DNA of 64,000 nt, taken from Azorinus chamasolen (taxonomy: Eukaryota; Mollusca; Bivalvia; Cardiida; Solecurtidae). Under the pieces are notes generated by a model, which saw only the letters and a program-made list of their open reading frames with translations, was not told where the DNA came from and did no database searches. Shown piece by piece: positions 1 through 64,000 of this stretch; position 1 is the first letter of the stretch; every line of letters starts with the position of its first letter. Location: positions 71,354,371 to 71,418,370 of the forward strand of contig OY755246.1 of assembly GCA_963576725.1 (NCBI GenBank), in the 5' to 3' direction. Made by a program: the position numbers and the translations under genes.

Positions 1-1099
1 TTAGAAAAATTGAGAGGAAAATTATGCATTACCATGTGCCCTATGCCTCTCCTGTAACACCATTGAAAGACTTTCGAAAAACTGTATCCTGCCATGTAAT
101 TTTGGGGTCAAAAGACAGATATTTCTGTGTTACCATGGAAACTAAATGCAGCTCCCATGGTTTTGTTTTCCCATATTGCCTCAGCTGACAGCAAACTCCT
201 GTAGTAAAGTGTAAGAGAAAGTTGAGAGTGATTGTGTTACACAGAGTCAATTGAATTATCCCAGGCCAATCAATAGTCACACTTGAAAAAGTACAACAAT
301 TACCATGTAAATGTTACCTTAGAAACGTAAAACCCTTGTAATTAGCTCTTTGCACTCTAATTAATTATCATTTGCCAGTCTTGTCACTGGCATACTGGGG
401 TAAATGCTAGATTTGTCTACATTTAGATAATTTCTTTTCAGAAAACACCATCTGACAGTGTTAGATCCAAACTACTTGAGAGTGTGTATGGATCCACATT
501 TGTTTTACCTATAGTTTGCATAAGTAGAAAGCGAAAAATAACATATTAAAAAAAAATATTAGTGGAATTAACAATCTTAGCTACAGAATGCTAATACATG
601 TAGGTAAAAAAGCATAATCTGGGCTTCGCAAACAGCATAGACACAGATCAGACATTGTAGTGAAAATTTCCAGTTTGTCAGATTTTTCACTGTCACATGA
701 GAATCCATAATCAATTTGTCCACATCCTCTGCAAAGAGTGCAGACCCTGATCAGACCACTGCATTTTCAAAGTAGCTGCTAATGTAGGTCTACACTCAGT
801 TTGCATATATAAACCAGCATGTATCTCTTATCTACTGTAGTAATGCTGGTGACCACATTCTCCTGAATTAAAAAAGAGTTAACTATCAAAGCTCAAGTTT
901 CACTCTTTTACATTCCCCTGCAGATTCGTTTTCTTCGACTTTCTGTCTAAAAACCTGTGCCAGTTTCAAATGTACTGGCAGATGGCAAACCAATCCATTG
1001 ATAAACTGCAGAAACTGGCCATGTTTATTCAACAAAAGTCTTCGTGGATTTATTGGATTTGATACGGCAGTTTGAAATCAAATTTGAAATCTAAAATTT
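1..1099. other. non-coding stretch without recognised gene
   Basis: No exon-like open frame or RNA gene is visible. Two short pieces, about 627-654 and 729-758, resemble the palindromic core arm of the TTAA-A element (CAAACAG, CAGACCCTGATCAGAC) and are probably decayed fragments. Confidence 0.6.
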
Positions 1100-1364
1100 T
1101 GTGAGCTGGTGAATGGAACATACCAGTACAGTAAAATGTGTTTTAACTTTTTGCACGCTAGCGGAGAAACCGAACTAGCCTACGCAAACAGGATGGATCC
1201 AGATGAGATACTGCATTATACGACTTCTCATCAGGATCCAAACTCAGACATTTTGACCATATTTTTGCCAAGAAATGAGAAGTTTTTTTCAAGAATAAAA
1301 TATTTTAAGCAAACGACAACTGTCGCAGACAAAATTATATTACTTTAAGTATGTAAAGAGTTAA
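1100..1364 (+). mobile_element. TTAA-B family MITE-like element (copy 1)
   Basis: Dispersed element seen again in fuller form at 49011-49229. The diagnostic core is a BamHI-like palindromic pair, GGATCCAGATGAGAT at 1195-1209 and its inverse CTCATCAGGATCCAAACT at 1228-1245. It is followed by TTTTGACCATATTTTTG and a CAGAC-rich tail, and ends GTAAAGAGTTAA at 1353-1364. The left end is unclear. No transposase frame is present, so it is non-autonomous. Family name is mine. Confidence 0.5.
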
Positions 1365-1370
1365 GGAACT

Positions 1371-1520
1371 ACTTACTGAATAAATGTAAAAATTAGCTGG
1401 CTGCTTACTGAATAAATGTAAAAATTAGCTGGCTGCTTACTGAATAAATGTAAGAGTCTTAAAAATCAGCAGGCTGCTTACTAAATAAATGTAAGAGTCA
1501 TAAAAATCAGCTGGCTGCTT
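1371..1520. repeat. short tandem array, ~33-41 bp unit, 4 copies
   Basis: Four copies of CTGCTTACTGAATAAATG followed by AAAAATCAGCTGG. The phrase GCTGGCTGCTTTATTCAGGGTAAAAGTAATAC just downstream (given here only as a location, 1510-1540) resembles one arm of the foldback family at 11566 and 37463, so the array may be an expansion of that arm. Confidence 0.8.
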
Positions 1521-1737
1521 TATTCAGGGTAAAAGTAATACTGTTTGCAGTTTTTTGCATTACTATTTCTTTTTTTGTAATTAAGTTTTTGAATTAATAA
1601 TTTGTTTTAAATCATTATTTGGAAATTTTTTTTAATGAAATACATTTTCAAACTTTGGTATGAGCTTGATAACTTGATTTGGATGAAAATTGTGATATTG
1701 TCTTTCAAGACTAGAAATGGTAACAATTATCTTTAAC

Positions 1738-2199
1738 CTCACCAGAGCACAAAGTACTCAGGGTGAGCTTTTGTGATGGCCTGATGTTCATCGTCTGTCG
1801 GCGAGCATTGTCAACAATTTGAATCTTTAAAAATCTTCTCCTCTGAATCTACAGAGTTCTCAACTTTCATCTTTGGCACATAGCATCATACATACCTTAG
1901 GTCCTCTACAAAATTATATAAATTATGTCCCTGGGGTCAAAATTTGCCCTGCCCCAGGGGTGGCCAGATTTCTATAGAAACATATAGTGAAAAGTTTGAA
2001 AATCTTCTCCTCTGTAACTGGAAGGTTCTCAGCTTTCATATTTGGCATATAGCATCATGTTCAGGTCCTCTACAAAAGTTATAAATATAAGTTATGCCCA
2101 AGGGGTGACCAGTTTTCTATAGAAAAATATAGTGAGAATCTTCTCCTCTGATTGTCTGCATGGTGAGCGATATTAGGGCCATCATGGTCCTCTTGTTTT
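1738..2199 (+). mobile_element. pearl-like element, AGCTCACC family, short copy
   Basis: Starts CTCACCAGAGCACAAAGT and reads into GGTGAGCTTTTGTGATGG, a short terminal hairpin also present at 39150. It then has two imperfect core units (ATCTTCTCCTCTG... TTTGGCA.ATAGCATCAT... CCTCTACAAAA... CCCTGGGGTCAAAATT) and ends GGTGAGCGATATTAGGGCCATC near 2161. This is a compact relative of the large copy at 39086-42160. There is no coding capacity. Confidence 0.7.
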
Positions 2200-2263
2200 A
2201 ATTAATAGTGGGTTGGGATAGAGGTGGGGGTGTGGGGTTGTATATTCATCGGGCATTAAACTC

Positions 2264-2496
2264 TTAACCTCATAGAAACACCTTTTGATGCCTTAACAGA
2301 GTAGACCAAGACCAGACGGCTCCCGTAGAGTCTGCTGTTTTCTTATAAATGGAATAATACAGATTTGATTATACGGTTTCTGCCACAAATAAAAAACATC
2401 CTATGTTGATATGCCATTATAAAAATTCAGCAAATAAATATTCATGATGTCATTAAATTTATTTCTTACATGAATATTCATCAGGTATTAGATTAA
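2264..2496 (-). mobile_element. TTAA-A MITE copy 1
   Basis: Flanked by TTAA at 2264-2267 and 2493-2496. In this orientation the palindromic core (AGAGTAGACC... at about 2299) comes first and the AATATTCATGATGTCATT arm second (about 2440). The core is decayed on its right side. Family features: TTAA target, CCCTTTAC-type ends, no open frame, about 230-270 bp when intact. This points to a piggyBac-type MITE. Confidence 0.7.
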
Positions 2497-2724
2497 GGCA
2501 ACCACCTGTTTCCAAGACCTGCAATGAAACATCTTACATTATTGTCTCATATGAGAGGTCTTACCATAGTTAAGAACAAGAAGTATGTCCTAAATCCTGA
2601 CCATCTTCATATCAAGGTTGTTCATCTTTGAAGTAAAATCCTCCCATTGGTGTATGAGGAGTTGGACACAAGAATTTGCAGGATATTCATGTACATACAG
2701 ACAGATGTATGGATGGGCACAGAG

Positions 2725-2884: not shown

Positions 2885-2887
2885 TAC

Positions 2888-2999
2888 TTAACACTTTACC
2901 TCAAATAACACTTTACCTCAAATAACTCAAATAACACTTTACCTCAAATAACACTTTACCTCAAATAACACTTTACCTCAAATAACACTTTACCTCATA
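2888..2999. repeat. 17 bp array made of a MITE terminal repeat
   Basis: About six copies of AACACTTTACCTCAAAT. The unit matches the element end TTAACCCTTTAC(C/T)(T/C)CA, and the last copy is continuous with the body of copy 3. So the array is an expansion of a terminal inverted repeat. Confidence 0.85.
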
Positions 3000-3236
3000 T
3001 AAATGCCTTTTTCATACCTTTGCAAACACAGTTGACCCAGATCAGATGGCTCGGAGCCTCCTATAGGAGCCGTCTGATCAGTCTGTTCTGTTTGCTTTTG
3101 ACATGATATAGATCGGATTCTACAGCTTTTGTCAAAATGAAAGATTTCCTTGAAAAGTTTACATTATAAAATGCAGCTAACAAATATTCATGATGTCATT
3201 ATTTCTTACATGAATATTAAACAGGGAAAGTGTTAA
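2888..3236 (-). mobile_element. TTAA-A MITE copy 3 with amplified end
   Basis: Full-length copy bounded by TTAA at 2888 and at 3233-3236. The core hairpin lies at about 3022-3093 and the AATATTCATGATGTCATT arm at about 3185. Its left terminal inverted repeat is not single: it is repeated in tandem at 2888-2999 before the element continues (TCATATAAATGCC). Confidence 0.75.
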
Positions 3237-4807: not shown

Positions 4808-5801
4808 TATTTATAATGGGCATACTGGCATAAATATTCATGATAGGCAGGTTGGCATAAATATTCATGATAGGCAGACTGGCATAAATATTCATGATAG
4901 GCAGACTGGCATAAATATTCATGATAGGCAGGCTGGCATAAATATTCATGAGGGGAATGCAGAGACTGGCATAAATATTCATGATAGGCAGGCTGGCATA
5001 AATATTCATGATGGACATACAGAGACTGGCATAAATATTCATGAGGAGAATGCAGAGACTGGCATAAATATTCATGATAGGCAGAGACTGGCATAGATAT
5101 TCATGATGGACCTACAGAGACTGGCATAAATATTCATGATGGGCAGGCTGGCTTAAATATTCATGATAGGCAGACTGGCATAAATATTCATGAGGGGAAT
5201 GCAGAGACTGACATAAATATTCATGATGGACAGGCTGGCTTAAATATTCATGATAGGCAGACTGGTATAAATATTCATGATGGGCAGACTGGTATAAATA
5301 TTCATGATGGGCAGATACTGGCATAGATATTCATGATGGACCTACAGAGACTGGCATAAATATTCATGATGGACAGGCTGGTATAAATATTCATGATGGA
5401 CAGGCTGGCATAAATATTTATAATGGGCATACTGGCATAAATATTCATGATAGGCAGGCTGGCATAAATATTCATGATAGGCAGGCTGGCTTAAATATTC
5501 ATGATAGGCAGGCTGGCATAAATATTCATGATGGGCAGGCTGGCTTAAATATTCATGAGGGGAATGCAGAGACTGGCATAAATATTCATGATAGGCAGAT
5601 ACTGGCATAGATATTCATGATGGACCTACAGAGACTGGCATAAATATTCATGATGGACAGAGACTGGCATAAATATTCATGATGGACAGAGACTGGTATA
5701 GATATTCATGATGGACTGAGACTGGCATAGATATTCATGATGGACAGAGACTGGCATAAATATTCATGATGGACTTGAAGAGACTAGCATAGATATTCAT
5801 A
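4808..5801. repeat. minisatellite array with AATATTCATGA unit
   Basis: About 35 irregular copies of a unit of roughly 26-41 bp built on GGCATAAATATTCATGAT plus a short variable linker (AGGCAGGCT, GGACCTACAGAGACT or GGGAATGCAGAGACT). It is flanked by TTAA-A copies on both sides, and the invariant part equals the TTAA-A arm motif (CATGAATATTCATG), so it probably grew from that arm. Open frames reading (HEYLCQ.A)n on the minus strand are by-products. Confidence 0.9.
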
Positions 5802-10115: not shown

Positions 10116-10324
10116 TTAACCTTTGAATACATGAGCCGAGTAAACTGGCAAATAACGTTGACCCAGATCAGAGGGCTTCTAACTTATATTCCTCTAATCA
10201 GGGTCAGCACTGTTTGTTATTCAAAATAATTTCAGCCAATTTTACCGATCTATACAAAATGAACTTTTTTGTTTAACCAACAGCGGAATATTCCACTTTG
10301 AAAATTTAGTATTCAAAGGGTTAA
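10116..10324. mobile_element. TTAA-C family element, complete copy
   Basis: TTAA at 10116-10119 and 10321-10324 flank 11 bp inverted ends CCTTTGAATAC and GTATTCAAAGG. The interior carries a GACCCAGATCAGAGG / CCTCTAATCAGGGTC stem and GGAATATTCCACTTTG. It is about 200 bp without an open frame: a MITE with a piggyBac-like target site. Confidence 0.7.
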
Positions 10325-12708: not shown

Positions 12709-13802
12709 GTAACTAGAGGTTTGTTTTTGTCACAAAAACAGAATGATGTCTCCCCCTCCCATCCTCTTTCCAATACACAAGTGTAATGTCTGTAACTCCA
12801 AACTTATCAGGGTCTATTTTTTAGTCATCAGGGGCAATAACTCGAACATTATCAGGGGGATACAATTCAAAAAACCCGGGTACACAACAACTCATGCTGG
12901 TGAACATTCCTGTGAAGTTTGGTGACTCTAGTCCAAGTGGTTTTAAAGATATGCATCACACAAAGATACGCAGAGATACGTGCAGCACAAAGTTTCTCTA
13001 ATTTTAAGTTATCATATCAGGGGCAGTAACTCAAGAATTATCAGGGGGAGACAATTAAAAAACCAAGGTGCACAACAACTCATGCTGGTCAACATTCCTG
13101 TGAAGTTTGGTGACTCTAGCCCAAGTGGTTTTAAAGATATGCATCACACAAAGTTTCTCTAATTTTAAGTAATCATATCAGGGGCAACAACTCAAAAGTT
13201 ATCAAGGGGAGACAATTCGAAAACCTCAGGTGCACAACAACTCATGCTGGTCAACATTCCGGTGAAATTTGGTGACTCTAGCCCTAGTGATTTCAGAGAT
13301 ATGCACGACACTAAGTAAAGTTGTCTAATTTTAAGTCATCAGGGGCAGTAACTCAAATGTTAACAAGGGGAGACAATTCAAAACACCCAAGAGCAAAACA
13401 ACTCATGCTAGTGAGCAATCCTGTGAAGTTTGGTGACTCTAGCCCTACTGGTTTCAGAGATACGCACGACACAAAGTTTGTATAAATTTAAGTATTCATA
13501 TCAGGGGCAATAACTCAAGAATTATCAGGGGGAGACAATTCAAAAACCATAGATGCACAGCAACTCATGCTGGTGAACATTCCTGTGAAGTTTTGTGACT
13601 CTAGTACTAGCGGTTTCAGAGATACGCGCGACAAAGTTTTTCTAATTTTAAGTCATCAGGGGCAATAACTCCAAAGTAATCAAGGGGAGACAATTCAAAA
13701 AACCCAGGTGCACAACAACTCATGCTGGTGAACATTCCTGTGAAGTTTGGTGACTCTAGCCCAACTGGTTTCAGAGATACGCGCGACACAAGTTTGTGAC
13801 GG

Positions 13803-13836
<34 letters not shown>

Positions 13837-13882
13837 AACTCTGGCAAAAACAATATGTCTCCCCATAAATGGGGATGACATA
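12709..13882 (+). mobile_element. pearl-like element, GGGGCAATAACTC family, copy 1
   Basis: Starts ACTAGAGGTTTGTTTTTGTC with a CACAAAAACAGAATGATGTC lead and TCTCCCC. About seven imperfect core units of roughly 150-170 bp follow, each with TCAGGGGCAATAACTC, GGGGAGACAATTCAAAA and CAACAACTCATGCTGGT. It then has an ACAG/ACGG microsatellite at 13800-13836 and a 3' end AACAATATGTCTCCCC ... GGGGATGACATAAT. The 5' TCTCCCC and 3' GGGGA parts form short inverted ends. The architecture matches bivalve pearl/Helentron-associated elements. Confidence 0.8.
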
Positions 13883-14009
13883 ATTATCCAATTTGCTAGT
13901 GGATTTTGAATGACAAACATTGCAGACCCTGAACACAGGCTTCCTATAAGAGCCCTCTGGGTTTGTACTGTGTGTCTATGTCAATCAAATTATTTTCCTA
14001 TTGGATAAT
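13883..14009. mobile_element. 127 bp MITE with ATTATCCAAT ends
   Basis: Perfect 10 bp inverted ends ATTATCCAAT (13883-13892) and ATTGGATAAT (14000-14009). The interior carries a GCAGACCCTGAACACAGG / AGCCCTCTGGGTTTGTACTG stem of the same style as the TTAA families. It sits exactly between two pearl-like elements. Confidence 0.6.
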
Positions 14010-14021
14010 ATTATGTTGGAA

Positions 14022-15186
14022 AACAAGAGATGTCACAGTCACGTGACAAATGCCCCCAAAAATTGTACCCTGTGACATTGACCTTTGACCCATGGGCCAG
14101 GGAGTTGACACATTGTCTTTGTGTGGTGAACATTTGTGCCAGGTTCCTTTGAAATCCATTCACAGATAAACAAGTAATTGTACCCTGTGACCTTGACCTT
14201 TGACATATGGACCAGGGAGCTGAACGCGACACATCGTCTTTGTCTGGTGAACATCTGTGCCAAGTTATATTGAAATCCTTTGATATATAAAGAAGTTACA
14301 GACCGGACACCAAATTTGTGACAAAGTAATTGTACCCTGTGACCTTGACCTTTGACCCATGGACCAGGGAGTTGAAAGCAACACATCATCTTTGTCTGGT
14401 GAACATTTGTGCCAAATCATATTGAAATCCATTGATATATAAAGAAGTTACAGACCGGACACGAAATTTGTGACAAAGTAATTGTACCCTGTGACCTTGA
14501 CCTTTGACCTATGGACCTGGGAGATGAAAGCGACACATCGTCTTTGTGTGGTGAACATTTGTGCCAAGTTATATTGAAATCCATTGATAGATAAAGAAGT
14601 TACAGACCGGACACGAAATTTGTAACAAAGTAATTGCATCCTGTGACCTTGACCTTTGACCCATGGACCTGGGAGTTGAACGCGACACATCGTCTCTGTC
14701 TGGTGAACATTTGTGTCAAGTTATATTGAAATCCATCGATAGATGAAGAAGTTACAGACCGGACACGAAATTTGTAACAAAGTAATTGCACCCTGTGACC
14801 TTGACCTTTGACCCATGGACCTGGGAGTTGAACGCGACACATCGTCTCTGTCTGGTGAACATTTGTGTCAAGTTATATTGAAATCCATCGATAGATGAAG
14901 AAGTTACAGACCGGACACGAAATTTGTAACAAAGTAATTGCACCCTGTGACCTTGACCTTTGACCCATGGACCTGGGAGTTGAACGCGACACATCGTCTC
15001 TGTCTGGTGAACATTTGTGTGAAGTTATATTGAAATCCATCGATAGATGAAGAAGTTACAGACCGGACACAAATTTGGGACGGACGGAAGGACGGAAGGA
15101 CGGACGGACGGACGGACAGACGGACAGACGGAAGGACGGAAGGACGGACAATGCGACTACTATATGCCCACCGTTGGGGGCATAAA
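14022..15186 (+). mobile_element. pearl-like element, GTGACCTTGACC family (152 bp core)
   Basis: Lead AACAAGAGATGTCACAGTC and ATGCCCCCAA. Seven core units follow, each with CCTGTGACCTTGACCTTTGA, GGTGAACATTTGTGCCAA and TTACAGACCGGACAC. A (GGAC/GGAA)n microsatellite lies at about 15077-15148, and the end is ACCGTTGGGGGCATAAAA, inverse to the lead's TGCCCCCAA. The rightmost units have an exact 152 bp period and are nearly identical, a sign of recent unit conversion or amplification. The minus strand stays open through the cores, but this is not coding. Confidence 0.85.
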
Positions 15187-15194
15187 AATAATGA

Positions 15195-16516
15195 AACTAG
15201 AGGTTTTTGTCACAAAAACGGATGTCTCCCCTCTAATAAAAACAATATGTAAAGGGAAATCACTAAAAATGTTATGGTCTTGATGAATGATACTTCCCCT
15301 CATTATGCGTTTTCCACACTACATTTTTCAAGAAGAAAATGACAACAGCTAATAACTCCAAAAATACTGATACCAGATTTATGGCCCTAATGTGCATGAC
15401 ACTTACTTTCATCATGCTCTTTCCAAAAATAAAATGTCATTCCAATAGCATCAGTCGAACAGGAGTTATTGATCGGCCAAAAAATGTAACAAAGGGCAAT
15501 AACTCCAAAAGTATTGAAGCCAGAATTATGGCCCTTGTTCATGACACTTTCTCTCATCATGCTCTTTCCATGTATGAAGTTTCAATACGATGGCAAGAGC
15601 CATGTAGGAGTTATCGTCCGGACAAGAAAGAATTAAACAAATGTACAAGGGGCAATAACTCTAAATTTATTGAAGCTCGAGTTAAGGATCTTATGCATGA
15701 CACTTTCTCTTATCATGATCGTTCCATGCATGAAGTTTCACTCCAATGGCATGTGTCACATAGGAGTAATCATCCGGACAAAAAATTGTGATTTTTTTTA
15801 CAAAGGGCAATAACTCCAATATTAGTGAAGCCAGAGTTATGGACCTTGTGCATGACACTCCCTCTCGTTATGATCTTTCCATATATGAAGTTTCAATCCA
15901 ATGGCATGAGCCATATAGAAGTTATCGTCCGGACAAAAAAGTGTGATTTTTTTTTACAAAGGGCAATAACTCCTATAATAGTGAAGCCAGAGTTATGTAC
16001 CTTCTGCATGACACTTCCTCTCATTATGCTCTTTCCATATATGAAGTTTCAATCAACTGGCATCAGACATATTGAAGTTATTGTCCGGACAAAAAATTAT
16101 GATATTTTTTACAAAGGGCAATAACTCCAATATTAGTGAAGCCAGAGTTATGGACCTTGTGCATGACACTTCCTCTCGTCATGATCTTTCCATATATGAA
16201 GTTTCAATCCAATGGCATGAGCCATATAGGAGTTATCGTCCGGACAAAAAAGTGTGATTTTTTTTTACAACGGGCAATAACTCCAATATTAGTGAAGCCA
16301 GAGTTATGGACCTTGTGCATGACACTTCCTCTCATTATGCTCTTTCCATATATGAAGTTTCAATCAACTGGCATCAGGCATATTGAAGTTATCGTCCGGA
16401 CAAAAAGTGTGACGGACAGACGGACAGACGGACGGACCGACGGACAGACTGACAGACAGACAACTCTCACGAAAACAATATGTCTCCCCCATATAAATAT
16501 GGGGGGAGACATAATG
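15195..16516 (+). mobile_element. pearl-like element, GGGGCAATAACTC family, copy 2
   Basis: Same ends as the copy at 12709 (ACTAGAGGTTTTTGTCACAA; AATATGTCTCCCCC ... GGGGGGAGACATAATG), but a different core variant. About seven units carry GGGCAATAACTCCAATATTA, GCATGACACTTCCTCTC and TATCGTCCGGACAAAAA. An ACGG/ACAG microsatellite lies at about 16412-16462. Ends conserved with a replaced core suggests core exchange between family members. Confidence 0.8.
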
Positions 16517-17483: not shown

Positions 17484-17948
17484 TGATCTGAGGGCTAGGA
17501 GTCCTCTCATGTGGAGACCAGGAGTCCTCTCATGTGGGTCTGAGGGCTAGGAGTCCTCTCATGAGGGTCTGAGGGCTAGGAGTCCTCTCATGAGGGTCTG
17601 AGGGCTAGGAGTCCTCTCATGAGGGTCTGAGGGCTAGGAGTCCTCTCATGTGGGTCTGGGGGCTAGGAGTCCTCTCATGAGGGTCTGAGGGCTAGGAATC
17701 CTCTCATGTGGGTCTGAGGGCTAGGAGTCCTCTCATGTGGGTCTGAGGGCTAGGAGTCCTCCCATGAGGGTCTGAGGGCTAGGAGTCCTCTCATGAGGGT
17801 CTGAGGGCTAGGAGTCCTCTCATGAGGGTCTGAGGGCTTGGAGTCCTCTCATGTGGGTCTGAGGGCTAGGAGTCCTCTCATGTGGGTCTGAGGGCTAGGA
17901 GTCCTCTCATGAGGGTCTGAGGGCTAGGAGTCCTCTCATGTGGGTCTT
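17484..17948. repeat. 30 bp minisatellite array, ~15 copies
   Basis: Unit GTCTGAGGGCTAGGAGTCCT then CTCATG(A/T)GGG. It is preceded by GTGCAGACACTGATCTGAGG, which looks like a MITE hairpin arm, so the unit may come from such a core. Sequence identity between units is high. Confidence 0.9.
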
Positions 17949-20776: not shown

Positions 20777-21790
20777 TTAATGAGACACGTTTCATGCCAA
20801 CTGAGTAGACCCAGATCAGACAGTTTTTACAGAGACGTCTGTACAGGGTCTGCTCTTTTTGCTTCTGGAATACTATAGATCTCATTCTACAGTTCATACT
20901 ATAGATCTCATTCTACAGTTCATACTATAGATCTCATTCTACAGTTCATACTATAGATCTCATTCTACAGTTCATACTATAGATCTCATTCTACAGTTCA
21001 TACTATAGATCTCATTCTACAGTTCATACTATAGATCTCATTCTACAGTTCATACTATAGATCTCATTCTACAGTTACTATAGATCTCATTCTACAGTTA
21101 CTATAGATCTCATTCTACAGTTCATACTATAGATCTCATTCTACAGTTCATACTATAGATCTCATTCTACAGTTCATACTATAGATCTCATTCTACAGTT
21201 CATACTATAGATCTCATTCTACAGTTCATACTATAGATCTCATTCTACAGTTCATACTATAGATCTCATTCTACAGTTCATACTATAGATCTCATTCTAC
21301 AGTTCATACTATAGATCTCATTCTACAGTTCATACTATAGATCTCATTCTACAGTTCATACTATAGATCTCATTCTACAGTTCATACTATAGATCTCATT
21401 CTACAGTTCATACTATAGATCTCATTCTACAGTTCATACTATAGATCTCATTCTACAGTTACTATAGATCTCATTCTACAGTTACTATAGATCTCATTCT
21501 ACAGTTCATACTATAGATCTCATTCTACAGTTACTATAGATCTCATTCTACAGTTACTATAGATCTCATTCTACAGTTCATACTATAGATCTCATTCTAC
21601 AGTTACTATAGATCTCATTCTACAGTTCATACTATAGATCTCATTCTACAGTTACTATAGATCTCATTCTACAGTTCATTCCATGACCAAATATTCCTGT
21701 GTTCATAATTATGCAATTATAAAATTTCACGTAATTAATATTCATGATATCATTATTTCTTACATGAATATTCATGAAGTAAATGGTTAA
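20777..21790 (-). mobile_element. TTAA-A MITE copy 13 with internal array
   Basis: TTAA at 20777 and 21787-21790. The core palindrome (CTGAGTAGACCCAGATCAG ... GTCTGCTCTTTTTGC) lies at 20800-20861. The sequence then enters the normal middle segment ACTATAGATCTCATTCTACA and stays in that segment for about 32 copies. It exits at 21678 into ATTCCATGACCAAATATTCC and the usual AATATTCATGATATCATT arm. The element is therefore complete, with one internal segment expanded from about 26 bp to 808 bp. Confidence 0.9.
20871..21678. repeat. 26/23 bp array inside a MITE, ~32 copies
   Basis: Unit ACTATAGATCTCATTCTACA plus GTTCAT (26 bp) or GTT (23 bp). About 24 long and 8 short units; the short ones cluster near 21075-21120 and after 21465. 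Units are otherwise almost invariant, so expansion is recent. Each unit carries an AGATCT palindrome. Confidence 0.95.
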
Positions 21791-22605
21791 TATTTTCAAA
21801 CTTTCTCACCACCAATATCCTTATGCAATATTCAGCCAATACTCTGCAATAACGTTCTAACTGAAATAGCTATTTTCAATACTCATTCTGACAATGGGCT
21901 TTAAAAGCATTTAAAGAGAAAGAATGAGAGACAATACGAGATAATTTATTTCTTTAATAGAGCTAGTTGTTCAGCAAAGATATTAGTAACATTTTACAGT
22001 TCATTTGAGATTCCCTATGCTCAAAAGAAAAGTTTTCAAACTACAAGCAGTAATAGATCAGCTGCATGTCTGATCTGGATCTTAACTCTTTCTAGTGGAA
22101 GTTGACACCACTTTACCTGCTGAAGAGTAACACAGTTGATCTAGATCAGTTTGCTGCATTTCCCATATGGCAGCCCATGGATCAACAGTGTTTGCATAAT
22201 GTATTATGATGTTGTTCAACTACATTGAAATGAAGTATTTGATGCTAAATTTGTACAGAACATAATAATTCTATGGTTATACAATTTACTTGGCAAAGTT
22301 TGTGAAATTTATATTCTGATTAATTCATTTTTAAAGGACATTTAATTGAACAATATTCATTATTACAACAAATGGATGAAAACTTTTAGCAAAGTATTAA
22401 GATCAATTAAGTCCTCTTTAGACCAAGGCTAGATAGAACTAGTGGTTTAGTGCATAACACTCATATATATGCATGCCAAGGAACCTAAGGCCAAGTAAAA
22501 CCTTTCAAACACCCAGTCTCCCCTCGCCACCAGTTTGTGAAACTTCACAATTAAATTTGGCACCATTTTGATCACTTTAAATTTAACTAGACTGATATGT
22601 AGCAA
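21791..22605. other. unique sequence, nothing recognised
   Basis: Only a short palindromic fragment is visible, at about 22130-22196 (CAGTTGATCTAGATCAG and ATGGATCAACAGTGTTTGC). No exon-like frame was found. Confidence 0.45.
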
Positions 22606-22735
22606 ATAGTGTAGACTCAAATAAAACGGCTCCTCCAGGAGCTGACTGATCTGGGTCTGCCTATTTGCAATAAAACGGCTCCTCCTAGAGCTGATTGATC
22701 TGGGTCTGCCTATTTGCCTAAGTTTGTCTGAATAC
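22606..22735. repeat. family D hairpin element, duplicated core
   Basis: AGCAAATAGTGTAGACTC leads into two copies of AAAACGGCTCCTCCAGGAGC plus TGATCTGGGTCTGCCTATTTGC. The end GTCTGAATACTAAGGTAATTAG recurs at 25445, 43985, 26270 and 62205, which defines a small dispersed family. Confidence 0.55.
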
Positions 22736-24385: not shown

Positions 24386-24820
24386 AATCCCATTAACAGT
24401 TGCAACCTACAGACTTGATGCTACATAGCCTACACCATAATCAGCATGGCAACTATCTCATGCACAGATCATTGTTCTGTACAACAACACAGACAATCTC
24501 ATACATAAATTGGCTGAGCAAAAGTCACTTTCTTCCATATACAGTTTAAGAAGTTTGTGGAGCGATTTATGGTTATCAATCCTTATACTAAAGTCCAACA
24601 GCCAACTACAAACAATACATGATAGCTTATACGATCCCAGGAACTTAATGGGTCGGAAAGGACATGAAATGGCCTTTATCACTTTACAATTACTTACTAA
24701 GAATTCTCCTTGTATTTACCCTAATAACCTGAAGTATTCATCAACCTAGTCTTCCCTCTCTACCAGTTTGTACAGCTGAGTTCTGCTCCAGTTTTCCAGC
24801 TATAACCCTGTATTCATTAG
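24386..24820. other. unique sequence between two arrays
   Basis: Open frames exist on both strands (24510-24749 plus, 24458-24682 minus) but neither has splice signals or a recognisable motif. Confidence 0.4.
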
Positions 24821-25325
24821 AAACCCTTTAAATGCCTTTGCAAACAGAGTAAATCCAGATCAGACAGCTCCTGTAGAAGTCACCGAGATCAGACAGCTCC
24901 TGTAGAAGCCACCCAGATCAGACAGTTCCTGTAGAAGCCACCCAGATCAGACAGTTCCTGTAGAAGTCACCCAGATCAGACAGCTCCTGTAGAAGCCACC
25001 CAGATCAGACAGTTCCTGTAGAAGCCACCCAGATCAGACAGTTCCTGTAGAAGTCATCCAGATCAGACAGTTCCTGTAGAAGCCATCCAGATCAGACAGT
25101 TCCTGTACATATCAGACAGTTCCTGTAGAAGCCACCCAGATCAGACAGTTCCTGTAGAAGCCACCCAGATCAGACAGTTCCTGTAGAAGCCATCCAGATC
25201 AGACAGCTCCTGTAGAAGCCATCTGACCAGGGTCTGCTCTGTTGTTTAATGAATAATATAGATTCCATTCTGTGTTCAGATGCTATAATAATGTCACAAT
25301 GTTATTTCTTACACGAAAAGGTTAA
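24821..25325 (-). mobile_element. TTAA-A MITE copy 14 with expanded core arm
   Basis: Begins AAACCCTTTAAATGCCTTTG. The core arm AACAGAGTAAATCCAGATC enters a 29 bp array, and the element resumes with ATCTGACCAGGGTCTGCTCT at about 25218. The middle is TAGATTCCATTCTG, and it ends with TTAA at 25322-25325. The AATATTCAT arm is partly lost (TGTTATTTCTTACACG). Confidence 0.85.
24858..25215. repeat. 29 bp array from a MITE palindrome arm
   Basis: About 12 copies of ACCCAGATCAGACAGTTCCT plus GTAGAAGCC. The unit is exactly the left arm and centre of the TTAA-A palindrome (CCAGATCAGACAGCTCCTGTAG). Confidence 0.9.
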
Positions 25326-27618: not shown

Positions 27619-27889
27619 TTAATCCTTTACTCCATGAATATTTATGGAAGATCTAATGTTTGTATGAATATTTATGTAAGATCTAATGTTTGTATGAATA
27701 TCAATTAGTTTAATATTTAGTATAGCATAAAAGCAAGAAAAAATGGTGAAAACTATAGAATAAGAGCTATACTATATCATGAGCAAACAGAGCAGACCCT
27801 AATCAGAAGACTCCTATAGGAGCCGTCTGATCTGGGTCTACTCTGTTTGCAATGGTAGAGAAAGGCGTATTTATGGAGGAAAGGGTTAA
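27619..27889 (+). mobile_element. TTAA-A MITE copy 16, reference-quality
   Basis: Perfect TTAA at 27619-27622 and 27886-27889. The left end TCCTTTACTCCATGAATA and right end TATTTATGGAGGAAAGGG match at 15 of 18 positions as inverted repeats. The core palindrome 27782-27851 (GCAAACAGAGCAGACCCT ... GGGTCTACTCTGTTTGC) is nearly complete around GACTCCTATAGGAGCCGTC. A 37 bp duplication (GAATATTTATG.AAGATCTA) lies in the left arm. Confidence 0.9.
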
Positions 27890-30191: not shown

Positions 30192-30464
30192 TTAACCCTT
30201 TCCTCCATGATTATAAATTGGAGAATTAATACTGCATGAATATTCGTGGGCTGAACGTTTATAATTACACACTATCAAGGAAATGTTTGCCTGTGGAAGA
30301 AACCTCATAATCAGATCATCAGGCAGCTGACCCTGGGGTCACACAGCTCCTACAGGAACTGTCTCATCAGGCAGCTGACCCTGGGGTCACACAGCTCCTA
30401 CCGTCTCATCAGGGTCTACTCTGTTTGCAAAGGTGCCAAAAGCTGTCTGTGAGGGAATGGGTTG
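30192..30464 (+). mobile_element. TTAA-A MITE copy 19 with duplicated core arm
   Basis: TTAACCCTTTCCTCCATGAT at 30192. The core segment CAGGCAGCTGACCCTGGGGT plus CACACAGCTCCTAC is present twice (30320 and 30368), followed by GGGTCTACTCTGTTTGC. This is a two-copy early stage of the kind of expansion seen at 24858. Confidence 0.8.
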
Positions 30465-34449: not shown

Positions 34450-35525
34450 AGCAAAAAATGCGGAAACCGAATTAAAGCCGGATTTTTTTGTGTTGACCTT
34501 GACCCAATTTGATGTATCCTTGTATCAACTGAAAGGCCTTCACCCAAGCTATCTGCATACCAAATATAAATTGTCTAGCCCATGTAGTTCAGAAGTTACA
34601 GCAACATTTTAATGACAGTCAATGTTTCAAAATAGTAACCTTGACATGATTTCAGGTATCTTTAAGTCATCCGTAAGGTCCATACCAAAGCTATCTGAAT
34701 ACCAAAGGTGAATTGCCTAGCACTTGTGGATCAGAAGTTGTAGCAAAATGTTAAAGTATATTAAAAACAGTAAAGTTTTCAAAATAGTAACCTTGACCCA
34801 ATTTCATGTATCCTTGTATCAACTGAAAGGCCTTCACCAAAGTTATCTCCATGCCATATATATATGAATTGTCTAGCATATGAGGTTCAGCAGTTAAGAA
34901 AAAATGTTGAAGTTTTTCAATGATGTCCAATTTGTCTAAATAGTGACCTTGACCTTAATCTAATTTCAAATATCATTATATCAACTGAAAGGCCTTTTAC
35001 CAAAGCCATTTGTATACCAAAGATGAATCACCTAGCATTTGTATTTCAGTAATTATAGCAATGTTAAAGTTTGTTAAAAATGGCATAGTTTTGGAAATAG
35101 TGACCATGACCTGATTACATGTATCCTTATATTAAGTGAAAGGCCTTCACCCAAGCTATCTGCATACCAAATATGAATGGTCTAGCTTAAATAATTCAGA
35201 AGTTATAAGCAATGTTAAAGTTTTGTTAACAACAGCAAACTTTTGGAAATAGTGACCTTGACCTGATTTCATGTATTCTGTATCAAGTGAAAGGCCTTCA
35301 CCCAAGCTATCTGTATACCAAAGATGAATTGCTTAGCATTTGTAGTTCAGAAGTTATAGCAATGTTAAAGTTTGTTAAAAACGGCAAAGTTTTCGGAATA
35401 GTGACCTTGACCATGACCTGAGTTCATGTATACTTGTATCAAGTGAAAGGCCTTCACCCAAGCTATCTGCATACCAAATATGAAAGGTCTAGCTTAAATG
35501 AATTATAAGCAATGTTAAAGTTGTT
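34450..35525 (+). mobile_element. pearl-like element, GACCTTGACC family, six to seven cores
   Basis: Lead CAAAAAATGCGGAAACCGAA, then about 150-170 bp units with AGTGACCTTGACCTGATTTC, GTATCAAGTGAAAGGCCTTC, ACCCAAGCTATCTGCATACC and TCAGAAGTTATAGCAATG. No 3' microsatellite remains, so it is 3' truncated near TTAAAGTTGTTAACCC. Confidence 0.75.
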
Positions 35526-35684
35526 AACCCATCACAAAAATGAGCATTAAATCAACAAAGTAAAAGCAATGTTTATTTCATTTAGGGTAATCTCATGCAA
35601 GTTTTTTATTCAAAGAAAAAACTTGTACATTATCAGAAGTGGTCTCAAACTGAATTTAACCATTTTTATTCTATAAAGTATGCT

Positions 35685-35912
35685 TTAATAGCCTTTTAAT
35701 GGCCTTTTAGTGGCCTTTGCAAACAGAGTAGACGTAGATCTGCTGATTCTGGTAGGAGCTGTCTGATTTGGTTCTACCCTGCTGGCTTATGAAATACTAT
35801 AGATGTGATTCTACAGTTTGTGCAATGGCTGTTTCTGTGTTCATTTATACCAATGCTTCTAATGACTATTCAAGATCTCATTATTTCTTACAGGAATATT
35901 CATGAAGTAAGA
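35685..35912 (-). mobile_element. TTAA-A MITE copy 25
   Basis: Core pair GCAAACAGAGTAGACGTAG ... TTGGTTCTACCCTGCTGGC, middle ACTATAGATGTGATTCTACA, arm GGAATATTCATGAAGTAAG. The ends are degraded; TTAA motifs at 35685 and 35695 mark the left side. Confidence 0.7.
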
Positions 35913-39478: not shown

Positions 39479-41310
39479 TTGTTAGTGCGTCCGTCTGTCC
39501 GTCCGTCTGTCCGTCCGTCAACAATTTCAAACGACTTCTTCTCTGAAATCGACTGCCCAATTGTAACCAAACTTGGTCAGATACATACTGTGGGTGGGTG
39601 CTTCAAAAGTTGTTAAAAGATAGTGGGCGGGGCCATCGGTCTTGTTGCCATGGCAACTGTACACAATATCTATAAAAACCTTCTTCTACAGAATGACTTG
39701 TCCGATTTGAATATAGTTTTCACCAAAATGTTTCTCAGTTGATAGACTTTAAAAGTTGTTAAAATAATTTTGATCGGGCAAAAAACATGGCCGCCAGAGG
39801 GCGTGGTCTTTTTTTCCATATAAGGTAATATTGGAAAATCTTTAAAAATCTTCTTCTCTGAAACTGTAAAGCCTAGACCTTTGATATTTGGTATGTAGCA
39901 TGATCTTATGGTCCTCTACAAAGATTGTTCAAATTATGACCCCCGGGCCAAAAATGGCCCCGCCCAAGGGCTTGTCAGTTTTTCATAGGAAAATCTTTAA
40001 AAAAATTCTTCACTGAAACTGTAAGGCCTAGAACTTTGATAATTGGTATATAGCATGATCTTATGGTCCTCTACAAATTTGTTCAAATTATGACCCCCGG
40101 GCCAAAAATGGCCCCGCCCAAGGGCTTATCAGTTTTTCATAGGAAAATCTTTAAAAATCTTCTTCTCTCAAACTGTAAGGCCTAGACCTTTGATATTTGG
40201 TATGTAGCATGATCTTATGGTCCTCTACAAATATTGTTCAAAGTATGACCCCCGGGCCAAAAATGGCCCCGCCCAAGGGCTTATCAGTTTTTCATAGGAA
40301 AATCTTTAAAAATCTTCTTCTCTCAAACTGTAAGGCCTAGACCTTTGATATTTGGTATGTAGCATGATCTTATGGTCTTCTACAAATATTGTTCAAATTA
40401 TGACCGCCAGGCCAAAAATGGCCCCGCCCAAGGGCTTATCAGTTTTTCATAGGAAAATCTTTAAAAATCTACTGAAACTGTAAGGCCTAGACCATTGATA
40501 TTTGGTATGTAACATGATCTAATGGTCCTCTACAAATATGTAGCTGTGGCTTGTGGTCCTCTGCCAAAAATGTTTAACTGACGACCCTGACCACTGGGCG
40601 AAACTTGGCCCTGCCTCAGGGCTTATCAGTTTTTCATGGGTAAAATATAAAATATTATTTTTCTCTGAAACCATAAGGCTTAGACCTTTAATTAATGGCA
40701 TACTGCTTTGCCTAGTGGTTCTCTACCAAGGTTGTACACATGATTTCTTATGGTCAAAAATGGGTCCGCCCCTGGGGTTATCTCAGGTGAGCGCTTCAGG
40801 GCCTCATGGCCCTCTTGTTCTTAAAATGAAATCTCCTCCTAAACTACTAGCTGGATTTTTACTAAACTTGTCAGAAATGTTCCTTGGATCAACTTCTTCC
40901 AAATTTGTTCAAATAATTTGATACCATGCAGAATGCTGGTTGCCATGGCAACCAATGTCCAAAAAGAAATAAAAACTTTTAAAAAATTATTGTCAAAAAC
41001 TGTAAGGCCTTAGGGCTACCAAATTTGGTATGTAGAATCATCTAGTAGACCTCTATTTAGATTTTCAAATTTTGTCCCTGGGATCAAAATTGGCCTAACC
41101 CTAGGGGTCACAAGTTTTACATTGAATTATATGGTAAAAAATTAAAATATCTTCTTGTCCGAAAATGAAAAGCTCAGAGCTGTGATATTTGGTATGTGTT
41201 ATCATCTAGTGAACCTTTACTAAGATTGTTCAAATTATGCCCCTGGGTATAAAGACAGCCACGCCCTGGGTCACAAGTTTTACATAGGATTATATAGTAA
41301 AAACTTAAAC

Positions 41311-43879: not shown

Positions 43880-44010
43880 ATAAAATACACAGACAAAATA
43901 GCAAAATAGGGTCGAGCCTGATCAAATTGATCCTTCAGGAAGTGTCTGATCTGGGTCTGCACTATTTACCTAAGTTATCCTGCCTGAATTCTTACGGTAA
44001 TTAGGATTAT
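43880..44010. repeat. family D element
   Basis: AGCAAAATAGGGTCGAGCCT, hairpin centre TGATCCTTCAGGAAGTGTC, TGATCTGGGTCTGCACTATT, and the end CTGAATTCTTACGGTAATTA. Confidence 0.5.
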
Positions 44011-45150: not shown

Positions 45151-45242
45151 GAATCTGCTGTTAACATACAAAATGGCTATTCATAGGGAAATAAGAAATC
45201 AGTAGAGGGACATGTGAATCTGTCATCAGAAATTTCACAGGA

Positions 45243-45421
45243 ATGGCACATGAACACAGGAATGGCACATGAACACAGGAAATATTTTCAATGGCAGAAA
45301 CTGCAGAATCGTGAGCAAACAGAGCAGACCCTGATCAGACGGCTCCTACAGGACTGGTCTGATCTGGGTCTACTCTGTTTGTAAAGGCATCGAAAGGCTC
45401 ATTTATGGAGGAAAGAGTTAA
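45243..45421 (+). mobile_element. TTAA-A MITE copy 29, left arm missing
   Basis: Duplicated GGCACATGAACACAGGAAT, then CAATGGCAGAAACTGCAGAA. The core palindrome is at about 45313-45381 with centre GACGGCTCCTACAGGACTGGTC, and it ends TTATGGAGGAAAGAGTTAA (45403-45421). Confidence 0.75.
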
Positions 45422-55632: not shown

Positions 55633-56068
55633 TTAACCCTTTCCCGGTTGCATATTAATGTAAGAAATAATAACATCAGATTAATCTTTACAATAGCATA
55701 TGAACATGTTAGCTCAGGCAAAAACTATAATATGGGGTGTATATCATACCACAAGCAAATAGAGCAGACCCTGTCTACTCTGTTTGCAAAGGTGTAGAAA
55801 ATCAGACCCTATCTACTCTGTTTGCAAAGGTGTAGAAAATCAGACCCTGCAAAGGTGTAGAAAAGCAGACCCTGTCTACTCTGTTTGCAAAGGTGTTGAA
55901 GAGCAGACCCTATCTACTCTGTTTGCAAAGGTGTAGAAAATCAGACCATGTCTACTCTGTTTGCAAAGGTGTAGAAAATCAGACCCTGCAAAGGTGTAGA
56001 AAAGCAGGCCCTGTCTACTCTGTTTGCAAAGGTGTTGAAAAGTGTATTTTATGGAGTAACGGGTTTAA
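55633..56068 (+). mobile_element. TTAA-A MITE copy 33 with expanded right core arm
   Basis: TTAA at 55633 and 56065, ends CCCTTTCCCGGTTGCATA and TTTATGGAGTAACGGGT. The left arm and middle are normal. From AGAGCAGACCCTGTCTACTC the element becomes an array to about 56035, then continues into its normal right end. Confidence 0.85.
55764..56035. repeat. ~41 bp array from a MITE core arm
   Basis: Units CAGACCCTGTCTACTCTGTT then TGCAAAGGTGTAGAAAAT, some shortened to CAGACCCTGCAAAGGTG. The unit joins the left arm (CAGACCCTG) to the right arm (TCTACTCTGTTTGCAAAGG), so the palindrome centre was deleted before expansion. Confidence 0.9.
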
Positions 56069-56602: not shown

Positions 56603-57000
56603 TAATAAACCATTTACCTCATGCATATTCATCTCAGAAATAATGACATCATGTCACCAATTAGCTGAATGTTTATAATGACATCATGTCACCAATTAGC
56701 TGAATGTTTATAATGACATCATGTCACCAATCAGCTGAATGTTTATAATGACATGTCACCAATTAGCTGAATGTTTATAATGATATCATGTCACCAATTA
56801 GCTGAATGTTTATAATTATATCATGTCACCAATTAGCTGAATGTTTATAATGACATCATGTCACCAATTAGCTGAATGTTTATAATGGTGTACAAATGTA
56901 TGTATAAACACAGGGATTTGGGGCTATGGTAGAATCCATATGACTTCATAAGCAAACAGAGCAGAACCTGCTTAGATGGCTGTTCTGTTTCAAGTTATTC
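56603..57000 (+). mobile_element. TTAA-A MITE copy 34 with expanded left arm
   Basis: AACCATTTACCTCATGCATA leads into the usual arm AGAAATAATGACATCATG, which becomes an array. After it the middle ACACAGGGATTTGGGGCTAT and core arm AGCAAACAGAGCAGAACCTG follow, and the copy is then lost in a TCTGTTTCAAG duplication. Confidence 0.8.
56639..56885. repeat. 35 bp array from a MITE arm, 7 copies
   Basis: Unit TGACATCATGTCACCAATTA then GCTGAATGTTTATAA. It corresponds to the segment TGACATCATG....AATTAGCTGAAT...TATAA of intact TTAA-A copies. Confidence 0.92.
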
Positions 57001-60663: not shown

Positions 60664-61510
60664 TAGTGTACTCATAGAGTTACTATGATACAAAGTACCC
60701 ATAGAGTACCTGACTATGATATAGAGTACCCAAAGAGTATGATATAGATCCATTGAGTACCTATGATATAGCGTACCCATAGAGTGCCTGACTATGATAT
60801 AGCGTACCCATAGAGTGCCTGACTATGATATAGCGTACCCATAGAGTGCCTGACTATGATATAGCGTACCCATAGAGTGCCTGATTATGATATAGCATAC
60901 ACATAGAGTGCCTGACTATGATATAGCATACCCATAGTGTGTCTGACTATGATATAGAGTACCCAAAGAGTATGATATAGATCCATAGAGTGCCTGACTA
61001 TGATATAGTGTATCCATAGAGTGCCTATGATATAGTGTATCCATAGAGTGCATGACTATGATAAAGAGTACGACATAGATCCATAGAGTGCCTGACTATG
61101 ATATAGCGTACCCATAGAGTGCCTATGATATAGTGTATCCATAGAGTGACTATGATATAGCGTACCCATAGAGTGACTATGATATAGCGTATCCATAGAG
61201 TGACTATGATATAGCATATCCATTAGAGTGACTATGATATAGGGTATCCATAGAGTGACTATGATATAGCGTATCCATAGAGTGCCTATGATATAGCGTA
61301 TCCATAGAGTGCCTATGATATAGCGTATCCGTAGAGTGCCTATGATATAGCGTACCCATAGAGTGCCTATGATATAGCGTATCCATAGAGTGCCTATTAT
61401 ATAGGGTACCCATAGAATGCCTGACTATGATATAGCGTACCCATAGAGTGCCTGTCTATGATATAGAGTACCCATAGAGTGCCCGACTATGATATAGAGT
61501 ACCCATTGAG
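60664..61510. repeat. 27/31 bp minisatellite array, ~29 copies
   Basis: Unit CCATAGAGTGCCTGACTATG plus ATATAGCGTAC (31 bp), or without CTGA (27 bp). Irregular GAGTACCCAAAGAGTATG units occur at 60727 and 60960. Minus frames give HSMDTLYHR repeats and are not coding. The array continues for about two units at 61822-61870, beyond a SINE. Confidence 0.92.
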
Positions 61511-61818
61511 TAAAGTAAAGTATCTAGTTATAGTCTACTTATAGTCCGAATGACCGTTCAGCCGACTGTACATTTACTCCCCTGGTCATTGAGCCATTCG
61601 CCTACAATATTGAGCACTGCTAACATATGGAGCAATCATGCAGCCGCAGTACCGGCTAGTGACCCTGACAGGTACCCATTTTAATCCCTGGGGGGGAGAG
61701 GAGGTGCGGATGGGAGACACTGAAAAGTGTCTCTGAAATTTTCGGGAGGGACCGGGATTTGAACCCCAGACCTCTGGACTGGTAGTCAAGCGCGTTACCA
61801 CTAGACCACCACACACCA
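61508..61818 (-). mobile_element. tRNA-derived SINE
   Basis: On the minus strand the 5' head is tRNA-like: A box TGGTCTAGTGG (61798-61808) and B box GGTTCAAATCC (61755-61765), 33 bp apart, with GGTCCCTCCCG after the B box. These are the internal RNA polymerase III promoter elements. The body (CAGAGACACTTTTCAGTGTC, GGGATTAAAATGGGTACCTG, CTGCGGCTGCATGATTGC) extends to about 61515, with a short ACTTTACTTTACTC tail. The parent tRNA is uncertain because the anticodon stem is degraded. It is inserted in the array, which resumes on the other side. Confidence 0.8.
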
Positions 61819-61859
61819 CACTAGTACCAGACTAAAATATAGCGTACCCATAGAGTACC

Positions 61860-62167
61860 GGACTAAGATATGGTTCGAACCAAATTTAGTAGCCCTAGGC
61901 CTTACAGTTTTTGACAAGAAGATTGTTAAAGTTTTTACTTCTTTTTGGACATTGGTTGCCATAGCAACCAGAGTTCTGCATGGAATCACATTCTTTGAAC
62001 AACTTTGGAAGAGGTTGACCCAAGAAACATTTCTGCCAAGTTTGGGAAAAGTCCAGCAAGTAGTTTAGGAGATGTCATTTTAAGAAAAAGTTTGACGACG
62101 GACAACAGACGACGGACACAGGGCGATCACAATAGCTCACCTTGGCACTTCGTGCCAGGTCAGCTAA
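61860..62167 (-). mobile_element. pearl-like element, AGCTCACC family, single core
   Basis: On the minus strand: AGCTGACCTGGCACGAAGTG, AGGTGAGCTATTGTGATCGC, a short CGTCGTCCGTTGTCCGTCGTC region, then a core (GGTTGCCATAGCAACCAGAG in plus sense reads as its own near-palindrome). Confidence 0.7.
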
Positions 62168-62225
62168 AAAGTTCACCAACGACTGAACAGGAGACATTGG
62201 TTGTCTGAATACTTAGGGTAATTAG

Positions 62226-62882
62226 GGTATTCCTAAATATAATAACACATCACTGTATTCAGTTATGGACAGATATTTTCAAGTTCACTCAACCACTCAT
62301 TCATTCATTTTTTTCAAAGAAATGTTTTATAGATTATCTCTATGGGGATTACATCTGTGTGAATTTTGCCTATAATTCTCTGTGTTAAGTTGGAGCTCTT
62401 TGGTCTGAGGCAGCATCATTATTTCCTCGCTGCTTGCCCTTCCCGAGATGTCACCATTTCCTTTGAGGGCATAATCAAATTGACACCCATCTTGATTGGC
62501 ACAAACCATTGCAAATGTTTCATCAATAACGCAATTATTAGGTCCATTTAGTCATAACAAAGGGATTTTGCCACAAATACGTTAGGCTTGGACATATATT
62601 ATATCCGGATAAAATCTCTAAAGCTCGATTTGAGCTTGTTTCTCAGATTATGGTGACAAATTATTGCATTTGTCAAGAGAAAAATAAACAATAAAAGCTG
62701 AAAATGGAATCGGAAATGTTTTAGACATGACAGAGCAACCATTGTAGTCTTAATCGACCTAGTGAGAAAAGCACTTACATTTATGATTTCTACTGAAATA
62801 AAACATTGATTTGACTTTCTGTGATATTTTTGTAGTACAATAGATTCAAAGGTATCTTCTAGAGTGATTATAAATCCTCATC
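62226..62882. other. mostly unique sequence
   Basis: Holds the weak candidate frame below; the remainder has no recognised repeat. A family D end fragment (GTCTGAATACTTAGGGTAAT) lies just before it, at about 62200-62225. Confidence 0.4.
62327..62509 (-). CDS. weak candidate exon
   Basis: The minus frame reads about 75 codons between stops (VIDETFAMVCANQDGCQFDY, ALKGNGDISGRASSEEIM, QTKELQLNTENYRQN). Composition is protein-like and charged. An ATG is at 62509. No good splice acceptor is visible upstream, and the plus strand is also open. Family unknown. Confidence 0.18.
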   Translation of the reverse strand: MVCANQDGCQFDYALKGNGDISGRASSEEIMMLPQTKELQLNTENYRQNSHRCNPHRDNL

Positions 62883-63190
62883 TCCAATAAACTGTAATAT
62901 GCCTTTAAAAACAGCACGAGTACCGTAACCCCAATAAACTGTAATATGCCTTATACAAAATGAGTACCGTAACCCCAATAAACTGTAATATGCCTTATAC
63001 AGCATGAGTACCGTAACTCCAATTAACTGTAATATGCCTTATACAGCATGAGTACCGTAACCCCAATAAACTGTAATATGCCTTATACAGCATGAGTACC
63101 GTAACTCCAATTAACTGTAATATGCCTTATACAGCACAAGTACCGTAACCCCAATAAACTATAATATGCCTTATACAGCACGAGTACCGT
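62883..63190. repeat. 44 bp minisatellite array, 7 copies
   Basis: Unit CCAATAAACTGTAATATGCC, TTATACAGCATGAGTACCGT and AACC; an AACTCCAATTAAC subtype alternates with AACCCCAATAAAC. Confidence 0.92.
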
Positions 63191-63590
63191 TAAATAACTT
63201 GTATTTCTTACGTTTTAATTTAAGGGACTGTGATACAATAATTGTGTACCCATTTTTGTCTGTGACTGTGATAGTATTTATAAATGTAACTGCTTTTGAT
63301 GCCAATTTTAATATTCTATTTAATAATATGACTTACAATTTAATTCATGTGATATAGCATCCGCTTGTGATAGTATTCATATTATATATTAAGCCTCTCT
63401 ATGTCATGCCACCTGTGATAAGGACCACAATGGAAATAAGAGCATGCTCTTTATTGTGTAATCCTTGGTATAGAAAGCATGCCATGGTTTTTCACTATGC
63501 ATCATTTTACAAATTATTATTTATTATGATGTGATACATGTTTGTGAACCATATTATGTTTTCTGTTTGTCGAAATCTATCTATCTATCT
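63191..63590. other. unique sequence, nothing recognised
   Basis: Ends in a short (CTAT)4 microsatellite at 63576-63591, immediately before the next MITE. Confidence 0.4.
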
Positions 63591-63850
63591 AAACCCTTTA
63601 CTGCTTGAATATTCATGTGAGAATTAATGACCTCATTATTATTAATTAGCTGAACTTCAACACATGGGCATTTAGCAATGGCAGAAACTGTAAAATCAGA
63701 TGTATATAATTCCTTAAGCAAACAGAGCAGCCCCTGATCCGACTGCTCCTACTGGAGCTATCTGTTCTGTGTCTAACAAACAGAGCAGCCCCTGATCCGA
63801 CTGCTCCTACTGGAGCTATCTGTTCTGTGTCTATTCTGTTTGGACTCTCT
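63591..63850 (+). mobile_element. TTAA-A MITE copy 36 with duplicated core
   Basis: AAACCCTTTACTGCTTGAAT, arm AATGACCTCATTATTATTAA, AATGGCAGAAACTGTAAAAT. The whole palindrome (CAAACAGAGCAGCCCCTGAT ... GTTCTGTGTCTA) is then present twice with a 58 bp period (63719 and 63777), before TTCTGTTTGG. This is an incipient tandem expansion of an entire hairpin. Confidence 0.82.
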
Positions 63851-64000
63851 ACATGTTAGCCACAAATTCATGATAATGTACGCACTGACTAGCTCATGGT
63901 ACACAGAGTAACTTGTCTATTTCTCAACTATATCACACTATGATTAATGTTTTTGAAAAACAATGCAGAAATTTGCAGTCTACAATTATTTAGCATGCCA

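Follow-up and report, generated by a model that had tools for sequence, protein, structure and literature searches.

Minisatellite arrays inside and outside a TTAA-ended MITE family in an array-rich stretch of the Azorinus chamasolen genome

The stretch analysed here (the window) comprises 64,000 bp of the bivalve Azorinus chamasolen, bases 71,354,371-71,418,370 of contig C12 (OY755246.1) of a 1.72-Gb assembly, and contains numerous minisatellite arrays, several of which lie in copies of a TTAA-ended miniature inverted-repeat transposable element (MITE) family. Arrays were called with Tandem Repeats Finder, excluding microsatellite-like runs, and after merging the window shows 65 arrays that occupy 24,213 bases (37.8% of its length). 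It also shows 21 open frames of at least 130 residues, most of which, as judged by eye, overlap arrays. The MITE family is common and therefore hosts arrays in the window; there and overall, it hosts them in proportion to its coverage. The sample consisted of 26 stretches: the window, 19 other stretches and six stretches near the window (L029-L034). The stretches L035-L037 were used solely for array density.

The consensus of the element, TTAA-A, was made from 13 copies, all located outside the window. It is 245 bp long, shows TTAA at its start and end, 17-bp exact inverted ends and a central imperfect palindrome of 68 bp, and contains no array, the nearest thing being a 9-bp repeat spaced by 10. 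Terminal TTAA together with terminal inverted repeats identifies a TTAA-type MITE, which we take to be of the piggyBac or Kolobok class. A second subfamily, also represented by 13 copies, has a consensus of 250 bp. Both ends are in the search range for 49 of 104 core matches, counting overlapping loci twice. Genome-wide, a 26-mer of the core has 33,578 exact forward and 33,574 exact reverse matches, and its backward control has none. Profiles of both subfamilies cover 14.3% of the window and 16.7% of 20 stretches at fixed positions (195,695 non-N bases in all), which include L028 (3905 N, the remainder one array) and which also supplied part of the material for the profiles. Once arrays are collapsed, its share is 20% in the window and 18% in the 26 stretches. 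The core palindrome is common to subfamilies with unrelated left arms (arm score 25, shuffled maximum 31; core score 126), and it is also present without matches to the element ends or in other TTAA elements. Examples are found at 10140-10229, 13904-13981, 22600-22720 and 43899-43972 of the window and in L010 and L026, and to judge from these sequences the palindrome looks like a module exchanged between MITEs.

The arrays hosted by the family are collected in Table 1. The original prediction that five arrays derive from five segments of the element is borne out by the element matches of the collapsed arrays and by the position of their seeds on the consensus. Its two-copy loci at 30320 and 63719 likewise prove to lie in TTAA-A copies, as seen in their element matches, the exact run of the former and the two-copy array of the latter; the locus at 30320 is absent from the Tandem Repeats Finder list but is a repeat at a spacing of 48 bp. 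When the arrays were cut to one copy, with the unit of 55761 hand-set to 38 beforehand, a single element match spans the seed at 20870 (consensus 1-210), 24855 (114-246), 55761 (1-245), 56640 (3-170), 63719 (3-208) and 2889 (1-246), with E-values from 5e-21 to 2e-47 for all six. At 2889 the cut adds little, because the array is at the element end and a single match existed before cutting. The element continues on both flanks of 20870, 24855, 55761, 56640, 63719 and 27634 and on only one side of 2889, whereas the flanks of 4824 and 17487 are not convincing. The units of the named arrays are sequence of their host element, with 4824 and 17487 doubtful.

Table 1. Arrays and two-copy repeats assigned to the MITE family in the window (positions of the window; segments on the TTAA-A consensus).
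Feature	Position	Strand	Origin in the element and host
17-bp array	2889..3002	-	terminal repeat of TTAA-A copy, consensus 227-244; host to 3236
27-30-bp array, doubtful	4824..5800	-	counted as MITE-hosted; E 9.5e-12; seed not placed on consensus
29-bp array, doubtful	17487..17947	+	weak core palindrome match, E 6.7e-05; seed not placed on consensus
26-bp array, 32 copies	20870..21679	-	middle of TTAA-A copy, consensus 104-131; host 20794-21790
49-bp two-copy array	22620..22717	-	core palindrome without element ends
29-bp array, 13 copies	24855..25223	-	core palindrome arm, consensus 162-191; element matches 24803-25303
30-bp array	27634..27701	+	element's own CATGAATATT direct repeat; element matches 27620-27888
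Two-copy repeat, spacing 48, 38-bp exact run	30316..30401	+	core; element matches 30192-30463 overlap on consensus 149-192
11-bp array	35684..35718	-	element's AAAGGCGTA direct repeat; host match 35699-35910
19-bp array	45236..45281	+	consensus 69-89; host match 45261-45421
38-bp array	55761..56041 (merged from 55765-55988)	+	fused core arms, read from sequence; host 55633-56066
35-bp array, 7 copies	56640..56887	+	left arm, consensus 35-72; host 56608-56981; ATAATG flanks
58-bp two-copy array	63719..63833	+	most of core palindrome, consensus 140-196; host 63592-63844

Junctions of the arrays 20870, 56640, 55761 and 24855 were searched in the whole assembly with at most one mismatch and gave 23, 4, 5 and 7 matches, respectively, every one of which falls inside the array itself. 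Since these four junctions are private to their own locus, the four arrays arose in place, after insertion of the element, and were not spread with it; an array that forms a module common to many copies, as in pearl elements or miDNA4, was found at none of the four junctions searched. The opposite order of events, in which MITEs inserted into or beside older arrays, could draw on the 47 of 59 window arrays (units <100 bp) that are not element sequence. It is nevertheless extremely improbable, because the named arrays consist of element sequence and the element match runs across the seed once they are cut to one copy; together with the private junctions, this upholds the expectation that the named arrays do not predate the MITEs.

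In the placement test, array seeds were put at random on the collapsed stretches, leaving out L028 and including, among the 26, L034, which is half N and has few arrays. Counts given for units under 100 bp leave out arrays whose units reach or exceed that length. In the window, 12 of 59 such arrays lie in the MITE family, two of them (4824 and 17487) doubtful, and 12.0 are expected; with all arrays the count is 12 of 65 and the expectation 13.2. The 26 stretches together show 26 MITE-hosted arrays among 150, against 29.2 expected. A re-run with units of 12-99 bp, which omits units below 12 bp and arrays with fewer than two copies, shows 25 of 140 MITE-hosted (ratio 0.89, 95% CI 0.57-1.31), and the ratios of these 140 arrays at three E-value cut-offs are 0.89, 0.85 and 0.91, every interval including 1. 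Other dispersed repeats are not enriched either, with 5 of 59 arrays in the window (7.6 expected) and 10 of 57 in the 19 other stretches (13.0 expected). Of the array bases in the window, the family has seeded 14.9% (3622/24308; 2184 bases if the two doubtful arrays are excluded); for the 19 other stretches the figure is 1.9%. The proposal that the element explains much of the minisatellite load, at most 15% in the window, is not supported.

The original prediction had also suggested that array units be compared with the consensus against shuffled units. In the window, 10 of 57 units match at p<=0.01, and 0.57 would be expected from shuffling; however, pieces of non-array DNA of equal length from the same stretch predict 9.0 matches at this level. 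At p<=0.02, which is the only level reached by the units of 2889 and 56640, 12 of 57 match and the same non-array pieces predict 10.4. In the 19 other stretches, 4 of 52 units match and non-array DNA predicts 8.4. The shuffle test is therefore passed, and shuffled units were rejected as the wrong control because non-array DNA passes equally. The idea that the MITE is a preferred minisatellite seed, owing to its palindrome or its terminal repeats, draws on the 12 arrays in MITE copies within one window, on units that match the element far beyond shuffles and on the six stretches near the window, where 10 of 34 arrays are hosted and 7.6 are expected (P 0.21). It is unlikely all the same, as hosting does not exceed coverage in the window or overall, shows a deficit in the 19 distant stretches, and the matching test does not separate arrays from other DNA. 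The statement that this MITE seeds minisatellites stands for the origin of the units and for the four arrays born in place; a preference is not seen, observed and expected numbers being equal in the window.

In the window and five neighbours (70.3-71.6 Mb of C12), arrays make up 27-38% of the sequence; in the 19 stretches elsewhere the mean is 11.0%, the median 8.2% and the maximum 33.7%. Stretches of C12 at 20, 40, 60, 72.4 and 76 Mb show 17%, 20%, 7%, 4% and 24%, respectively, and with such uneven densities the rich region has no defined edges. Neighbouring stretches are similarly rich, as is DNA outside the MITE, so the density does not set this window apart in the way the original prediction had supposed. 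MITE copies bearing arrays number 21 of 101 in the region, from which L034 was left out in this comparison, and 4 of 196 elsewhere (Fisher P 1e-7, taking copies as independent). Copy age was considered as the cause of this difference and rejected: the median identity to the consensus is 0.839 in the region (62 copies of at least 120 bp) and 0.841 elsewhere (125 copies), and equal divergence means that age does not account for it. A sampling or assembly effect, without biology behind it, is a less likely source of the regional richness, although it has some points in its favour: a single assembly and few stretches were used, the window was picked by a reader who had seen its arrays, in one of the six neighbours chosen by position (72.4 Mb) arrays account for 3.8% of the non-N bases, and distant stretches go up to 34%. 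Against it, arrays take up 27-38% of five of these six neighbours, the median of the 19 distant stretches being 8%. Tentatively, megabase-scale regions might differ about tenfold in the gain of new arrays by the same element at the same divergence, in which case the MITE family would supply near-identical reporters by the tens of thousands, mapping how often minisatellites are born and how that rate depends on the length of direct repeats.

The two longest internal direct repeats of the consensus are CATGAATATT (10 bp, spaced by 30) and AAAGGCGTA (9 bp, spaced by 10). The arrays 27634, L013:7743 and L023:6394 (the last by eye) match the CATGAATATT repeat, and 35684 matches the AAAGGCGTA repeat. 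Both recur in the genome: the CATGAATATT duplication junction is found at 46 exact sites in 39 loci, six of which show matches at multiples of 30 bp, and the AAAGGCGTA repeat at 40 exact three-copy sites in 34 loci (counted by hand). A count of 264 for the 10-bp junction with at most one mismatch was set aside, as TACATC stands in many of the matches listed, which might simply be normal element ends. One junction free of repeats, tested as a control, has no match genome-wide at up to one mismatch. A 6-bp pair, CTGATC, predicted as a second hot spot, failed as such, with 3 matches at two loci (at most one mismatch). For the unduplicated left end, 24,069 sites are present when one mismatch is allowed; the first 100 sites listed are all exact and reach as far as 25.3 Mb of C1, which by extrapolation suggests about 7,000 exact left ends genome-wide, of which roughly 0.5% would carry the CATGAATATT duplication. 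Seven of the 39 CATGAATATT loci are located in the first 10 Mb of C16, where 0.23 are expected (an interval chosen post hoc; maybe a segmental duplication), and none of the 34 AAAGGCGTA loci lies in that interval. The recurrence of the two junctions is what speaks for arrays that are modules of certain MITE sublineages and spread by transposition, like the tandem-repeat-containing type of MITE, since founder copies could yield it too; this alternative is improbable given that all four window arrays searched are private to one locus and that the consensus holds no array, just the 9-bp repeat spaced by 10.

In the test of seed edges, 14 mapped seeds show a direct-repeat value of 68, against 48.6 at random positions (P 0.0014). 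The seed starts of L023:6394 and 30320 were placed by eye, the former not being mapped automatically, and the test omits the fused array 55761, the doubtful 4824 and 17487 and the MITE-hosted arrays of L029-L033. Microhomology as a general cause is unsupported beyond the CATGAATATT arrays. Among 77 exact two-copy runs, many of them within larger arrays, excess lengths vary between 0 and 77 and follow no clear pattern.

Taken as a whole, the data are probably best explained by short duplications that occur genome-wide at a rate depending on the region, the MITE hosting arrays by its abundance. Tandem duplications of about 10-60 bp would arise in all kinds of DNA in this genome, at a rate that varies strongly by region and that long direct repeats (9-10 bp) increase locally, and some would later expand into minisatellites. 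About a fifth of the window arrays would begin inside the MITE family because roughly one fifth of the DNA outside arrays belongs to it. The duplications may come from error-prone repair of breaks, perhaps meiotic ones, by template switching or microhomology-mediated joining, and the arrays may have grown afterwards through unequal exchange or slippage; the present data agree with repair that leaves short duplications, at times via microhomology, as is documented for human meiotic breaks (PMC7615360). Several results weigh against this explanation. The 19 other stretches show 4 MITE-hosted arrays of 57 with 9.5 expected (units <100 bp; P 0.02-0.03), or 4 of 76 with 12.4 expected when all arrays are taken (P 0.002-0.003), the six stretches near the window lean the opposite way, and DNA without repeats shows an excess in the 19 distant stretches (43 of 57, 34.3 expected, P 0.011). 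The distant deficit and this excess mean that proportionality is not exact. The excess at seed edges comes from the three CATGAATATT arrays, the 11 other seeds giving 38 against 36.5 (P 0.38), so that a useful direct repeat is not visible at most seeds. Some of the 39 and 34 recurrent loci, moreover, could go back to the movement of a small number of founder elements or to segmental duplication.

Two further observations concern other repeats. The window contains, at 12971-16412, 34494-35504 and 39833-40539, longer arrays with units of 150-160 bp that are distinct from the minisatellites, some of them with GGGCAATAACTC or TGACCTTGACC motifs. A near-identical 30-bp unit is duplicated at L014:6188 and L027:6489, on different contigs, which hints at a dispersed element carrying the duplication.

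The start of a minisatellite is hard to study since the sequence it came from is, as a rule, unknown. For each array hosted clearly by the MITE, that ancestral sequence is known, and a single assembly directly shows where the arrays start, which repeats flank them and how rates vary by region; the MITE serves mainly as a marker of how and where arrays arise. Matches to a repeat consensus have to be weighed against the share of that repeat in the genome and not against shuffled units. Minisatellites derived from MITEs or other transposable elements are an already known kind; no study that employs a MITE family to report on minisatellite birth by region was met in a limited literature search, though one may exist in print. 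The human case was reportedly studied by Ahmed and Liang in 2012. According to the human study, 23% of human minisatellites and satellites derive from transposable elements, a fraction amounting to at least 44% of the genome, and these minisatellites are mostly without flanking repeats, known starters (an incomplete end unit, flanking direct repeats) explaining only 6% (PMC3389668). As here, segments of element copies were duplicated locally; the human figures are for transposable elements as a whole, whereas here a single MITE family was followed and its hosting compared with coverage and by region. Such minisatellites may come from any region of an element (PMC9659126). At human meiotic break hotspots, short side-by-side duplications, whose microhomology is mostly 1-10 bp long, are raised in particular regions (PMC7615360); the duplications are short and region-dependent in both cases, and those in humans were mapped at break hotspots, while a link to breaks would be an inference for A. 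chamasolen. There is also a likeness with Xstir and miDNA4 of Xenopus and with DTC84 and other pearl elements of bivalves, in which tandem repeats come from or lie in the MITE interior, with microhomology proposed for miDNA4 (PMC12628747, PMC9659126, PMC5139131). In those systems the array recurs as a component of the element, whereas in A. chamasolen each of the four arrays searched belongs to one locus.

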